Shown here one piece after another: positions 7,200-15,784 of a stretch of 32,626 nt of DNA. The translations under genes were made by a program, and so were the position numbers. Position 1 is the stretch's first letter. The number at the start of each line of letters is the position of its first letter. Under the pieces are notes generated by a model that saw nothing but the letters and a program-made list of their open reading frames with translations, did no database searches and was not told where the DNA came from. The stretch comes from an uncultured Bacteroidota bacterium (GTDB lineage: Bacteria; Bacteroidota; Bacteroidia; Chitinophagales; Chitinophagaceae): NCBI GenBank assembly GCA_903839875.1, contig CAIMDZ010000118.1, forward strand, positions 1-32,626. Direction: 5' to 3'.

Positions 7200-8483
7200 G
7201 TGGAAATAACCCGTTTATACGAATTATATCTGCAGCACCCGGCTGTGCAGACGGATACGCGCAAAATTAAAGCGGGAGAAATATTCTTTGCGCTAAGCGG
7301 AGAGAATTTTAACGGAAACACATTTGCAGCACAGGCTTTGGAAAAGGGGGCGGCCTGCGCTGTTATTGACGATGCTTCTTTCGCAATAAACGAAAGATGT
7401 ATTCTTGTACCCAATGCTCTGGAAACGTTGCAGCAGCTTGCAAAATACCACAGGAGCCAATTCACTATACCTTTTATTGCTATCACCGGATCTAATGGTA
7501 AAACAACCACAAAGGAACTGGTTGCTGCCGTTCTCAGTACCCGGTTTACTACTTATGCCACAGAAGGCAACCTGAACAACCATATTGGTGTTCCGCTCAC
7601 AATGCTGAAAATTAAAAATGACGCCCAGATGGCCATCATAGAAATGGGCGCCAACCACCGGAAGGAAATTGAAAGTTACTGCAGTATCGCAATGCCTACC
7701 CATGGCATCATCACCAACTGCGGTAAGGCGCATATCGAGGGTTTTGGCGGAATAGAAGGTGTGCGGAAAGCGAAAGGTGAATTGTACGATTTTATACGTG
7801 CCAGCCAGGGAACAATATTCAGAAATACCGATCTTGACTACCTGGAGCAAATGGCCGCGGGAATTGCACACCAGGTAACCTACGGCAGCGCCAATGCTGA
7901 GTATATAGGTAAGCCAATTATGGACGGGGTATTCCTGAATATAGCCATGCTCACAGCGCATACCGAGACTACTATTCATACTCACCTGGTAGGGGCGTAC
8001 AACGCTCCGAATGTGTTGGTGGCGATTGCTGCAGGCCTGCATTTCGGTATATCCATTGATGTGATAAAGCAGGCTATTGCCGCCTATAACCCCGACAACA
8101 GCCGTTCGCAGTGGTTACAAAAAGGCACCAACAAAATTATTCTCGATGCTTATAACGCCAACCCCACCAGTATGCGGGCGGCAATAATCAATTTTGCTGA
8201 GGCTGACCTGCCCAATAAAATGCTATGGATCGGCGGTATGAAAGAAATGGGCGCAGAAGAACACAATGAGCACCTGGAATTAGTTGCGCTGATTGGTCAG
8301 TACCATTGGAAAGATGTGATGCTGGTAGGCAAGGAATTCAGGGATTTACATAATAGCTACACCTGGTTTGAAAACTCGGCTGACGCGGCAGCGTTTGTCA
8401 GGTCTCATAAGCCTGAGCATAGTTCAATTCTTATTAAAGGGTCAAGAGGCAGTAAGATGGAGGTGTTGATGGAAGCGTTATGA
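7200..8483 (+). CDS. murF: UDP-MurNAc-tripeptide--D-Ala-D-Ala ligase MurF
   Basis: The last cytoplasmic Mur ligase, adding D-Ala-D-Ala to UDP-MurNAc-tripeptide with ATP. The start is a GTG at 7200, giving 427 residues that begin MEITRLYELYLQHP, as Bacteroidota MurF proteins do. The frame is open further upstream, but that part is the gldJ terminator and is not coding. A TTG at 7197 is an alternative. Visible are the N-terminal substrate domain (TDTRKIKAGEIFFAL), the ATP P-loop ITGSNGKTTTKE (Lys101), the carbamylated-lysine/Mg region (IEMGANHRKEIE), GKAHIEGFGG, and the C-terminal domain (DAYNANPTSMRAAI, GGMKEMG). The stop codon overlaps the convergent stop of the next gene by 6 bp. Confidence 0.93.
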   Translation: MEITRLYELYLQHPAVQTDTRKIKAGEIFFALSGENFNGNTFAAQALEKGAACAVIDDASFAINERCILVPNALETLQQLAKYHRSQFTIPFIAITGSNGKTTTKELVAAVLSTRFTTYATEGNLNNHIGVPLTMLKIKNDAQMAIIEMGANHRKEIESYCSIAMPTHGIITNCGKAHIEGFGGIEGVRKAKGELYDFIRASQGTIFRNTDLDYLEQMAAGIAHQVTYGSANAEYIGKPIMDGVFLNIAMLTAHTETTIHTHLVGAYNAPNVLVAIAAGLHFGISIDVIKQAIAAYNPDNSRSQWLQKGTNKIILDAYNANPTSMRAAIINFAEADLPNKMLWIGGMKEMGAEEHNEHLELVALIGQYHWKDVMLVGKEFRDLHNSYTWFENSADAAAFVRSHKPEHSSILIKGSRGSKMEVLMEAL

Positions 8484-9917
8484 TTTAGAATACACTTTTA
8501 TTTCACAATATCCTTTTGCTGCTATGATACGCACCGGCACCGGTAATTTTCCCGACATTAGTATGTTAGCCATATCGTTCGCCTGCTCTATTGTGAAGCT
8601 CCCGGTCACCTGTGTGCTGGCTGCTTCTATGGGGCCGTCCACTCTCGGGCAAGAAAATACCCGGTTATCATATACCATGGCTATGAAATTACCTACATTC
8701 TTCGTGGTGAATTGTTTCCAGCGCCTGGCACCTGTTAGGTTCATGTCTATAGTTACAGCAGGTTCACCCGTAATGGGATCAAAATCTGCACGCGCCTTAG
8801 TGATACAACTGCAATCTAAAACAAGAGACCCATCGGTTGGATATTTTATGGCATACACTGGTAAATATTTACTGGCAGGTTTATTTTTCTTGGGTTTATC
8901 CTCCACTCCGTAAACAATTCTGGCTCCGGCAGGTAATATATCTTTTACTCTTTTATCAGCCAGTATCATATCCAATTTCGTTATATCGTACCAGAACACA
9001 TAACCCACAACAGGCCCCGGTAAAGCCATGGCCTGATCCGTACTGTTTACACTTAGAGCTAATACAGTGAACAAAGGGTTTTTGCTCGCAAGCTCAGCTT
9101 TCTTATCTATGTCTCGTATCCAGTCAAGACTACATTTGGTATTGGCGCTCTGCACATAGTAGTTCAGACCGCCAGTATCCTCTTTGTATTTCAGACTGGC
9201 AGTATCCTCTTTGTATTTCAGACTGGCAGTATCCTCTTTTTCGGTGGGTTCATTTTTTTGTCGTCTTGTTTTAAACAATTGCCACAATTCGGGGTTATCC
9301 GAATCAAGAGCCGCTAACTTGTCATTTAGTATTACCCAAAATGGCAGAAAATCTTCGTTCTTATAGGTTTCTCCAAACAGCAGTTCGCCTTTTGACATAA
9401 AAGAGTTCAACCGGTCGTAACTATACTCCCCTTTAAACGTAGCTTTAATAATTCCTTTTTTCGGGTCATATTCCATGGTTGGATGGCCTTTATCCACCAT
9501 TCCGATCCTACTTTGTAGTATATGGTAGGTCTGGCTGGCAGCATCATTTGCCTGGCGGTTAAGAGCATTGATCACCGTTTCATTGTCGCTGTTGATACCA
9601 ATTTCAGATTGTGATGGTTTAATAAACAATTTCGCCATGTTTACACCCGGGTTTTCCCGTTGATAAATTGCGCCGAACAGAATGACAAATCCTGTATCGC
9701 TTATGCATCTGGTCGCCATGGTGTTTTCTATAGCAGCGTTCAATGCAGAGTCATTCGGGTCATTTGCTTTGTCCCTAAGAAATTCATCCAGGCTCACTTC
9801 CATGGTAACCCTTATTTCTTTTCCTTTAGTGACCGGTTTGCAGCAGATTACGGAGGTACATATAATCAGGGTCACAGTAATAACCACGAGATTATTTATA
9901 AGGCGTTGCAATTTCAT
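8478..9917 (-). CDS. Free-standing SecD first-periplasmic-domain protein
   Basis: 479 residues from the ATG at 9917, the start that gives a hydrophobic N-terminal segment (about residues 7-25, ending SVICC). That segment is either a signal anchor or an atypical lipobox. The rest follows the large first periplasmic domain (P1) of Bacteroidota SecDF from end to end. RVTMEVSLDEFLRD (36-49) corresponds to the start of P1. EIGINSDNETVINALNRQAN (105-124) and QTYHILQSRIGMVDKG (129-144) are the repeated core. NPLFTVLALSVN (280-291) and GPVVGYVFWYD (301-311) follow. The head subdomain is DFDPITGEPAVTIDMNLTGA (379-398), MVYDNRVFSCPRVDG (414-428) and TGSFTIEQANDMANILMSGK (438-457). It stops where SecD's second membrane helix should begin; the other SecD helices and SecF are absent, and murF fills the DNA beyond. 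Three in-frame 9-residue repeats lie at 227-253. The domain assignment is strong; the function (export helper, decoy or regulator) is unknown. Confidence 0.82.
   Translation of the reverse strand: MKLQRLINNLVVITVTLIICTSVICCKPVTKGKEIRVTMEVSLDEFLRDKANDPNDSALNAAIENTMATRCISDTGFVILFGAIYQRENPGVNMAKLFIKPSQSEIGINSDNETVINALNRQANDAASQTYHILQSRIGMVDKGHPTMEYDPKKGIIKATFKGEYSYDRLNSFMSKGELLFGETYKNEDFLPFWVILNDKLAALDSDNPELWQLFKTRRQKNEPTEKEDTASLKYKEDTASLKYKEDTGGLNYYVQSANTKCSLDWIRDIDKKAELASKNPLFTVLALSVNSTDQAMALPGPVVGYVFWYDITKLDMILADKRVKDILPAGARIVYGVEDKPKKNKPASKYLPVYAIKYPTDGSLVLDCSCITKARADFDPITGEPAVTIDMNLTGARRWKQFTTKNVGNFIAMVYDNRVFSCPRVDGPIEAASTQVTGSFTIEQANDMANILMSGKLPVPVRIIAAKGYCEIKVYSKS
9173..9240 (-). repeat. 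27-bp in-frame tandem repeat in the SecD-domain gene
   Basis: Two exact 27-bp units (9173-9199 and 9200-9226) are followed by a partial third. They encode KEDTASLKY twice, followed or preceded by the diverged KEDTGGLNY. The period is nine codons, so copy-number change would keep the frame. It lies in the variable linker region of the P1 domain. Confidence 0.9.
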
Positions 9918-10050: not shown

Positions 10051-10078
10051 ATGGGGAAGCCCCTTCAGGGGTTTGGGG
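10051..10078 (-). repeat. GC-rich hairpin overlapping the zapA stop codon
   Basis: On the minus strand CCCCTGAAGGGG forms a short stem, flanked by GGGGCTTCCCC and, about 15 nt later, a run of T. The TGA in the loop is the zapA stop codon. A related CCCC-TTTA-GGGG-CAGGGGG motif occurs at 21924-21942, so this looks like a common intergenic repeat that has settled on the 3' end of zapA. It may also act as a terminator. Confidence 0.5.
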
Positions 10079-10379
10079 CGGTCCCAATCACCTTGTCAAT
10101 CTTCCGCTCCAGCTTGTTCAGTTCTTCCTGCAACAATGGATTGTTGAAAGATTCGATAGCGCTGTCGGCGGCATAGCTCAGCAGGCACATGGCCATAAAA
10201 TCCTGGTCATCCTTGCCTGCATAATGGTTTCTCATTTCTTTTACCTTTTCATCGGCCATCTTCACCGCTTTGCGAACGGCAGATTCTTCCTCCGGCTTTA
10301 TGCGGATGCGGTAGCTGCGCCCCGCCAGCCATACGGCCACGGAGATTGTATTGTCTTCTGCTGAATTTTCTTCTGACAT
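10065..10379 (-). CDS. zapA: Cell division protein ZapA
   Basis: A 104-residue cytoplasmic protein of the ZapA family, which crosslinks FtsZ filaments at the division ring. The N-terminal beta-strand region (ISVAVWLAGRSYRIRI) and the charged RKAVKMADEKVKEMRN helix are typical. The C-terminal helix (ESFNNPLLQEELNKLERKID) is a predicted coiled coil. It begins 3 bp after the lspA stop, so the two are very likely co-transcribed. The last residues (GTAPNP) and the stop come from a GC-rich intergenic repeat and are probably not functional. Family identity is judged from size, fold pattern and the ZapA-like N-terminus. Confidence 0.8.
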   Translation of the reverse strand: MSEENSAEDNTISVAVWLAGRSYRIRIKPEEESAVRKAVKMADEKVKEMRNHYAGKDDQDFMAMCLLSYAADSAIESFNNPLLQEELNKLERKIDKVIGTAPNP

Positions 10380-10382
10380 ACC

Positions 10383-11099
10383 TTATTGGGTTACTAAATT
10401 ATCGCTTGTGTTGTCACCACTGCTGTCACTGCTGTGCGTTTTATGTATGAGCCGCTTTTGAAAGAATACAAGTGTAAGTACTCCTATCGAAATTGCTGCA
10501 TCCGCGATATTAAATACCGGTTCAAAAAAGATAAAGTTCCTGCCTCCGAAAAAAGGGACCCATGACGGCATCCTTGTATCCACCAGCGGGAAATAAAGCA
10601 TGTCCACTACTTTGCCCTGTAAAAATTTACCGTAACCGTGTCCGAATGAGGTAAGGTGAGCAACAGCCTCCTTGCTATGGTTCTGCAGCATATTATGCAG
10701 GTTGTCGTAATTGCCCGAGAAACAGGATGGAGGACTGTCTGAAAATATCAACCCGTAAAACATACTGTCTATCAGGTTGCCGAGGGCTCCTGCCAGTATG
10801 AGCGATCCGCAAATGATGGCCCCCTTGCTGTATCCTTTTTTTACTAATCTTTTCAACAGGAAGAATCCGAAAATTACCGCCACCAGCCTGAAGGAGGAAA
10901 GCAATATTTTACCCACCACCGATTCACTGATCTTCAGACCATACGCCATTCCTTCGTTCTCAATAAAGTGCAGCCTGAACCAGCTACCCAGCATCCTCAC
11001 TTCATCCCCGTTAGAGAAATGGGTTTTGATAAAGATCTTGAGCGCCTGGTCTGCAACAATGATCAATAAAACAATAAGTATGGCATTACGGTATTTCAA
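10383..11099 (-). CDS. lspA: Lipoprotein signal peptidase LspA (signal peptidase II)
   Basis: An inner-membrane aspartyl protease that cleaves prolipoproteins before the lipidated Cys. 238 residues, with four membrane helices at about 5-22, 64-82, 94-115 and 191-215. The two catalytic aspartates are visible: Asp111 in GALGNLIDS and Asp200 in FNIADAAIS. FIENEGMAYG (45-54) is the conserved periplasmic motif. It is longer than the E. coli enzyme (164) because of the insertion between the catalytic Asp residues (about 118-190), which Bacteroidota LspA proteins share in shorter form. It heads an lspA-zapA unit. It fits the window, which encodes several lipoproteins (GldJ, BamD, Omp28-like, QC-like, YwqK-like). 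Confidence 0.93.
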   Translation of the reverse strand: MKYRNAILIVLLIIVADQALKIFIKTHFSNGDEVRMLGSWFRLHFIENEGMAYGLKISESVVGKILLSSFRLVAVIFGFFLLKRLVKKGYSKGAIICGSLILAGALGNLIDSMFYGLIFSDSPPSCFSGNYDNLHNMLQNHSKEAVAHLTSFGHGYGKFLQGKVVDMLYFPLVDTRMPSWVPFFGGRNFIFFEPVFNIADAAISIGVLTLVFFQKRLIHKTHSSDSSGDNTSDNLVTQ

Positions 11100-14398: not shown

Positions 14399-14461
14399 AT
14401 TTTGAGGAATAACAAGAATTCAGGCAACACTACTTTTGGCTTTTCACTTTTAACTTTTCCC

Positions 14462-15718
14462 TTGAATATTCTGATATGGCAACTGGCACTTAGATACCTG
14501 CGCGGCAAGCGTTCGGCTAATGCTGTGCCTGTATTATCACGTATCAGTATGGTGGCCATTGCGGTTAGCAGCGGCGCTATGATTATTATCTTTTCGGTCT
14601 TTAACGGGCTCGAGTCCATTGTTAAGGACATGTACAAAGCCTTTTATCCCGAGATCAGGATCACTGTTGCCAGGGGCAAATTCTTTCCGATGGACAGCGC
14701 CGGGATACAAGCCATAAAAAATATAAAAGGAGTTGAAAATGTAACCACCGTTCTGGAAGACAATGTATTTGCCATCAACAACAACCAGGAAAGTATCATC
14801 TCCCTGAAAGGAATTGATAACAATTATTTTAAAGTAAATGACGTACTTGATTACCTGGTGCAGGGCGATAGTACGGTTACTGTTGGCCAGCCTTTGACAG
14901 ATACCTCCAAAGCTAGTCCAGGTACTGCTATAGTTGGCCGCCATATTATGAACGAATTAGGTACTGATGTCCATACGCTTAGTTATATTACCCTCTGCTA
15001 TACCAATCCGGATGTTATCAATCCGGCTCTGAATCCAACATCCGCTTATCAAACCCTGACCCTCCACCCCGCAGGTGTGTTTGCCATAGGAGATGAGTTC
15101 GACAGTAAGTATGTATTGGCGCCTTTACCCCTTGTTCAACGATTGTTTTCAGCTGAAAAAAAGTTTTCTTCCATTGAGATAAAAGCAGATGCCGGCGCAG
15201 CGCCTGAAATTCAAAAGCATTTGCAATCGCTGCTGGGCAATAACTTTAAAGTGGAGAAACGGTATGAGCAAAACAAGACCATGTACATGGTTATGGGGTC
15301 GGAAAAATGGGCTATCTATGCCATATTAGTGCTTGTGCTTATTATAGCCTCCTTCAACATGGTTGGCGCCCTATCTATGCTCGTACTCGAAAAACAAAAA
15401 GACATCGCCATTCTGAAAGCCATGGGTGCATTCCCCGAAACTATAAGGAGGATATTTCTTCTTGAAGGGGTTTTATGGGCCCTTACCGGAGGGCTTACAG
15501 GTCTTTTGCTCGGCACCGGAATCGGTTTGCTGCAGCAGCGGTTCGGATTTATTAAGCTGGTTGGCAGCTCGTTTGCAGTGGAGGCTTATCCCGTGGAGTT
15601 TCACTTCAAGGACTTCGTGCTCGTTATCATTACCATTTTAGTGGTTGGCTTGCTGGCTGCCTGGTATCCATCTATAAGGGCTACCAAAGCAGTGGACCCG
15701 TCGCTGAAGAGCGCTTAG
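14462..15718 (+). CDS. FtsX/LolCE-family ABC transporter permease
   Basis: 418 residues from the TTG at 14462, giving MNILIWQLALRYLRGKRS, the usual start of these Bacteroidota permeases. The frame is open upstream to 14402, but that DNA is the TTTTGGCTTTTCACTTTT kind of intergenic filler. One N-terminal membrane helix (about 27-48) with SRISMVAIAVSSGAMIIIF is followed by a large periplasmic domain (about 60-285). Three C-terminal helices (about 293-317, 348-370, 385-405) form the FtsX domain, with LEKQKDIAILKAMGA between them. This layout matches LolC/LolE, which release lipoproteins from the inner membrane. No ATPase gene is adjacent, so the partner must lie elsewhere. The exact substrate is not visible. 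Confidence 0.85.
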   Translation: MNILIWQLALRYLRGKRSANAVPVLSRISMVAIAVSSGAMIIIFSVFNGLESIVKDMYKAFYPEIRITVARGKFFPMDSAGIQAIKNIKGVENVTTVLEDNVFAINNNQESIISLKGIDNNYFKVNDVLDYLVQGDSTVTVGQPLTDTSKASPGTAIVGRHIMNELGTDVHTLSYITLCYTNPDVINPALNPTSAYQTLTLHPAGVFAIGDEFDSKYVLAPLPLVQRLFSAEKKFSSIEIKADAGAAPEIQKHLQSLLGNNFKVEKRYEQNKTMYMVMGSEKWAIYAILVLVLIIASFNMVGALSMLVLEKQKDIAILKAMGAFPETIRRIFLLEGVLWALTGGLTGLLLGTGIGLLQQRFGFIKLVGSSFAVEAYPVEFHFKDFVLVIITILVVGLLAAWYPSIRATKAVDPSLKSA

Positions 15719-15784
15719 TTTGGTTGATACGTTGATAAGTTGACTGGTTGATAGGTTGATAAGTTGATAGGTTGATAAGTTGAA
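15719..15784. repeat. Degenerate tandem octamer (RGTTGATA)n
   Basis: About eight copies of an 8-bp unit, alternating GGTTGATA and AGTTGATA with a few changes, begin directly after the permease stop codon. No coding role is visible. Tandem runs of this kind are seen between Bacteroidota genes; slippage could change the copy number. Confidence 0.85.

Follow-up and report, generated by a model that had tools for sequence, protein, structure and literature searches.

SecD and SecDF are the closest described relatives of the gene reported here. Their P1 domain is represented by the Thermus thermophilus structures 3AQO and 3AQP, by 5XAN and 5YHF, and by the NCBIfam model NF009585. The head of P1 has been described as having a substrate-binding pocket and contacting PpiD (PMC11470409), and AlphaFold models place SurA on it (PMC9987972). 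More than one SecD-derived set can occur in a genome: a second SecDF set, secD2-secF2, is described for Vibrio (PMC11470409), and secDF plus secD/secF for Streptomyces (PMC4139356).

Here we analyze a gene that encodes P1 alone, in a 32,626-nt contig of an uncultured member of the Chitinophagaceae (Bacteroidota). This whole stretch is called the window, and the gene and its product are called solo. The solo protein is like the P1 of SecD/SecDF in sequence and in its predicted base-plus-head fold, and it has a variable linker between base and head in common with the SecDF of its own genome. It differs from SecD/SecDF in lacking motor helices, SecF and the LGLDLQGG motif, in its apparently lipoprotein-type N-terminus, and in diverging much faster. 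Like the second sets of Vibrio and Streptomyces, it is an extra SecD-derived protein in one genome; those sets, however, are complete membrane motors, whereas the solo protein is P1 without one. Our literature search returned, among the matches listed, no report of a motor-free P1 protein beside SecDF.

A SecD P1 domain encoded as a separate gene

The 479-residue frame of the original prediction is real, with the correction that its coding strand is the minus strand (Table 1); the plus strand across 8478-9917 is riddled with stops. Only a 12-residue tail follows the P1 head. As had been proposed, murF occupies the DNA beyond the stop, in convergent orientation, and gldJ and porU are also among the neighbors. 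A terminator scan found none (shuffles average 2.3). Of 10 sigma-70-like matches (5.2 expected), one is placed immediately ahead of the solo start. Elsewhere in the window, a short tandem repeat (8 bp/24 bp; 15721-15783) lies directly behind a LolC/E-like gene (14402-15718).

Table 1. Window coordinates of the solo gene, its parts and adjacent genes
Feature	Position	Strand	Remark
Solo SecD-P1 gene	9917..8478	minus	479 aa from ATG, plus stop
Residues 1-26, hydrophobic N-terminus ending TSVIC-C	9840..9917	minus	read by eye
Residues 35-205, diverged P1 base part 1	9303..9815	minus	40% to own SecDF
Residues 206-275, variable linker	9093..9302	minus	low model confidence
Three 27-bp tandem repeats within linker	9159-9239		
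Residues 276-345, P1 base part 2	8883..9092	minus	41% to own SecDF
Residues 352-467, P1 head subdomain (PF22599)	8517..8864	minus	52% to own SecDF
zapA (PF05164)	10065..10379	minus	directly upstream of solo, same direction
lspA, lipoprotein signal peptidase	10383..11099	minus	context
murF	7059/7173-8483	plus	converges on solo, 6-base overlap with its 3' end

Profile searches firmly identify the solo protein as a SecD P1 domain, as originally predicted. NF009585 matched residues 35-466 (E 2.4e-67) with positions 83-481 of its 993, and Pfam SecDF_P1_head (PF22599) matched residues 365-460 (E 7.1e-25; 87.6 bits, cut-off 27). The NF009585 match covers P1 and nothing beyond it, in agreement with the predicted lack of translocase helices, and the whole-model score was 227.8 where 1037 is required. 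Neither the SecD_SecF_C helices nor the Sec_GG motif, both present in the genome's own SecDF, were found in the solo protein. Among solved structures, the nearest relatives by sequence alone were two SecDF chains: 3aqo of Thermus (E 2.6e-13) and 5xam (E 5.3e-8), the latter presumably from Deinococcus. An AlphaFold model built from five sequences was mediocre (pLDDT 64.3, pTM 0.51). With this model as the query, Foldseek ranked SecDF entries 1-9 and a holo-translocon chain 10th, with eight matches at E<=0.001. The alignments were long and their TM-scores low (0.14-0.25 by query), which we attribute to the two-part domain and its uncertain linker.

The further claim that the protein covers P1 in full stood only in part. 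The base is alignable and the head is kept, but the Pfam model of the N-terminal part of P1, SecD_1st (PF21760), found no match up to E 10 in the window solo or up to E 0.01 in those of three relatives (G021, G026 and G029); the genome's own SecDF matches it at 50.1 bits. This indicates that the base has diverged strongly, though it can still be aligned. Also missing is LGLDLQGG, which the aligned own SecDF has immediately ahead of its first P1 strand. The solo protein lacks features that define a SecD subunit and is therefore not classed as SecD. It is a P1 duplicate built from a known domain, the head of which Pfam already holds as a domain.

The paralogue originally proposed does have its complete SecDF elsewhere in the genome, on contig C100. 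This frame of 1,041 aa scored 1127.9 bits with NF009585 (cut-off 1037) and holds P1, the GG motif and SecD_SecF_C, matched twice. The window genome also holds a second P1-like frame, on contig C146 (L041:6567-7346), of 250 aa and without the head. It has a good lipobox by eye (TGC) and adjoins an IS200-like transposase gene (PF01797).

Distribution and divergence of the solo gene in the genus

Thirty-four of 35 genus genomes matched the solo protein at E<=1e-4, the exception being G003. SecDF-type frames of 787-1117 aa were present in 33/35 (the window's included), and G019 had a solo match only. In six genomes (the window's G000, G019, G020, G021, G026 and G029), a solo gene follows zapA directly in the lspA-zapA row. 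In all six an M28 gene precedes lspA, with one extra gene between them in the window. Relatives with the same truncation and neighbors, for which the original prediction had proposed a search, thus exist in the genus. Frames are open in the three copies visible whole (G000, G021 and G026). The G019 copy is cut by a contig end, that of G029 is split over two contigs, and that of G020 is broken into two overlapping frames. Searching beside zapA with a solo profile gave no match in 20 of the 29 non-carriers; in the remaining nine, murF and lspA are ~380-495 bp apart, too tight for a solo gene.

A role in the export of type IX secretion (T9SS) cargo had been suggested, and gldJ and porU do lie in its neighborhood. 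This link is not supported, as the gldJ-murF/zapA-lspA block occurs without the solo gene in five genomes (G006, G023, G025, G028 and G033), and the neighbors thus give no special connection to T9SS.

Residues 1-26 of the solo protein look like a lipoprotein signal rather than the first transmembrane helix of SecD. All six genus solos have a lipoprotein-type start. That of the window (VIC-C) is off-consensus by eye, with a Cys preceding the presumed lipidated Cys; those of the five relatives read SAC, TGC, TGC, TSC and SSC, which likewise by eye are good lipoboxes. The lipobox-type starts in five relatives suggest that the solo protein is likely a lipoprotein. Surface lipoproteins of C. canimorsus are described as carrying an acidic export signal, K-(D/E)2 or Q-A-(D/E)2, after the Cys (PMC5080379). 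By eye, no signal of this type follows the Cys in the window solo (CKPVTKGKE) or its relatives (CNPGK, CKGYGD, CKFPEG, CSSFK and CSFFN), from which we infer an anchor facing the periplasm; other species use other signals.

The six genus solos formed one branch in both P1 trees (SH-aLRT 97 and 99), with long branches; for G020 the trees include just the C part, and for G029 just a single contig. The C146 frame fell outside this branch in the first tree and, with four family rows, was left out of the second. Grouping solos with the SecDF of their own species was not rejected by AU tests (p 0.25 and 0.097), so a single origin rests on the tree together with the shared place and shared residues. 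Position 177 is Gly in 5/5 solos versus Ala in 30/30 SecDF sequences (Gly also in the C146 frame and in the chimera described below), and position 53 is Asp in 4/4 solos versus Asn in 30/30. The 30-row SecDF set omits G003 and G019 (no SecDF retrieved), G030, G031 and G033, of which G031 and G033 were compared later. When presence is mapped on a tree built from the portion of SecDF that follows P1, at least four changes are required for the five carriers in the 30 rows. Chance often gives a number as low (109 of 500 shuffles). The patchy presence would reflect repeated loss, or transfer. These changes, with absence at the locus in 29/35 genomes, indicate that the solo gene is dispensable.

The genus SecDF itself (L004-L032, L042, L082-L085) looks mosaic. 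Behind P1, two deep types are seen among 30 sequences; just after P1 they are 88-92% identical within and 72-75% between types, with types assigned on a tree of the region behind P1. No two-type split is seen in the N-terminal half, which includes P1. G009 has one SecDF frame of each type, and contamination of this MAG is possible.

The solos evolve fast and more loosely than their neighbors, yet are under selection against amino-acid change where this is measurable, which is in the relatives. Between G020 and G029, identity is 88% for SecDF P1, 84% for murF and 94% for lspA, and 51% (N part) and 40% (C part) for the solo. Two G029 contig variants, possibly strain variants binned together, gave a dN/dS of 0.14 (126 codons; 17 synonymous and 9 non-synonymous changes). 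Two other pairs gave 0.19 and 0.23 with saturated dS (2.07 and 2.59), so that these values are a rough sign only; a third pair was not computable. The murF, lspA, M28 and SecDF genes gave 0.03-0.08, below the 0.14-0.23 of the solos. Such fast divergence, with dN/dS above that of the neighbors, is unusual for a housekeeping helper, and the value from the one close pair argues that the solos are not simply decaying. Purifying selection measured in relatives of the window gene is in line with the original rejection of a decaying duplicate; the broken G020 copy speaks against that rejection. The proposal of a retained, separately anchored paralogue is supported by the same pair and by relatives with the same truncation and neighbors.

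In 5/5 solos compared, the head is nearer to the own SecDF (52, 40, 49, 52 and 44% identity) than the base parts are (25-45%). Cells invariant in SecDF are kept at 159/360 (44%) in base part 1, 43/57 (75%) in base part 2 and 178/300 (59%) in the head. As invariant cells are kept in the base too, the head is not the sole part held.

Loose P1 heads beyond the genus

We counted P1 heads in the wider family with the head model, which misses solos without a head, and took frames of at least ~590 aa as SecD by length alone. In addition to SecDF, 11/127 family genomes (the window's included) have short frames of 129-544 aa, 13 in all, with a head above the cut-off; a 37-aa match in G153 fell below the cut-off and was left out. 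In a set spanning the phylum, 4/128 genomes had a short head frame (G000 and G065 again, with G257 and G238 new). Like the solo, these short PF22599 frames (14; L048-L061) have the head without a translocase; they differ from it in their neighbors and, in some, by an added DUF4440. By eye, most start signal-like or lipoprotein-like (the latter L051, L055 and L059), and several hold little besides the head. Head plus DUF4440 proteins are encoded at four family loci (L048-L050 and L052, in three genomes and a further one), each gene flanked by nuo-looking genes, confirmed at L048 as those for the 49-kDa and 51-kDa NADH dehydrogenase subunits. The window's neighbors (murF, zapA, lspA, M28 and gldJ) have no counterpart in any of the 14 regions, suggesting that loose P1 heads arose, or moved, more than once. 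In G125, secDF is directly preceded on its own strand by a P1 frame of 412 codons (L054:3969-5204), apparently with helices at either end.

Two genus genomes, G023 and G027, encode a 669-aa chimera with a Cys-rich start, putative membrane stretches (by eye) and P1 at its end. It lies on a block of ~3.06 kb that is 98.0% identical in the two species and has unrelated flanks (L035:1439-4496 and L036:4669-7726). Related stretches of ~115 bp (73%) stand at both ends of the L035 block, and tyrosine recombinases are near the block in both. CapP-like (3e-68), E2-like (2.9e-55) and weakly MBL-like (5e-8) genes are near the L036 block; in a PADLOC scan of this neighborhood, the chimera itself matched no model. 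The P1 tree places it apart from the solos, with weak support (81).

Contig-database searches gave no match with the window protein alone. The solo alignment recovered five loci, all in MAGs of uncultured Bacteroidetes, and had no match in viral contigs. Of 50,697 phage records, three had a short head match. Plasmid records matched in 41/72,556 cases; among the best 20 of these 41, wherever the matched stretch carried a gene name, it was SecD/SecDF.

Possible roles of a motor-free P1

We give roughly even credence to the reading that the solo protein is an unpowered, periplasm-facing lipoprotein that arose by duplication of the SecDF P1 domain and acts as a passive binder, helper or competitor. 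The P1 domain would have been duplicated, detached from the membrane motor and given a lipoprotein-type signal. The product would be exported by Sec, lipidated by Lgt/LspA and left facing the periplasm. Having no transmembrane helices, it could not be driven by the proton motive force and would act passively. Its P1 head may bind emerging polypeptides, or periplasmic partners recruited by SecD P1, making the protein either an accessory holdase or one that competes with the P1 of SecDF itself.

It is less probable, in our estimate, that the solo and other loose heads serve as decoys or competitors, occupying an attacker of the periplasmic side of SecDF (a phage or bacteriocin factor) or damping SecDF. 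Such a function would account for the fast change at dN/dS below 1, for the patchy presence in the genus, and for a P1 chimera borne on a mobile block common to two species, near tyrosine recombinases and, at L036, CapP-like and E2-like genes. However, the chimera falls outside the solo group in the tree, a placement with weak support, and has no PADLOC match, relaxed constraint can equally produce fast change, and we know of no attacker of SecDF P1.

We also think it unlikely that the gene is a weakly constrained relic, a jobless P1 duplicate being lost species by species. Its absence at the locus in most of the genus, the broken G020 copy, the truncated second copy in the window genome, and a dN/dS exceeding that of the neighbors twofold to severalfold would fit such a history. 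Against it are the three open frames, the lipoprotein-type start in all six solos, residues common to the solos such as G177, and the dN/dS of the close G029 pair. That the solo is the first half of a split SecDF, the organism's only SecD, is very improbable and was rejected, because SecDF is complete on C100 (unless that contig is a binning error) and 32 other genus genomes also have SecDF-type frames.

Taking the putative unpowered P1 lipoprotein together with the loose heads, we raise, as a speculative and rather doubtful generalization, that in Bacteroidota the head of SecD P1 behaves as a detachable module. It would have been freed repeatedly as periplasmic or lipid-anchored proteins, carried on moving DNA, and would regulate or shield the periplasmic face of the Sec motor under an arms race. 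If true, this would be a layer of Sec control for which we found no description among the literature matches listed. Found in a genome that also has an intact SecDF, this natural P1 without a motor allows a direct test of whether the domain can do useful work in the absence of the proton-driven helices. Loose P1 heads recur in other Bacteroidota, which suggests that the domain has uses outside the current SecDF model.
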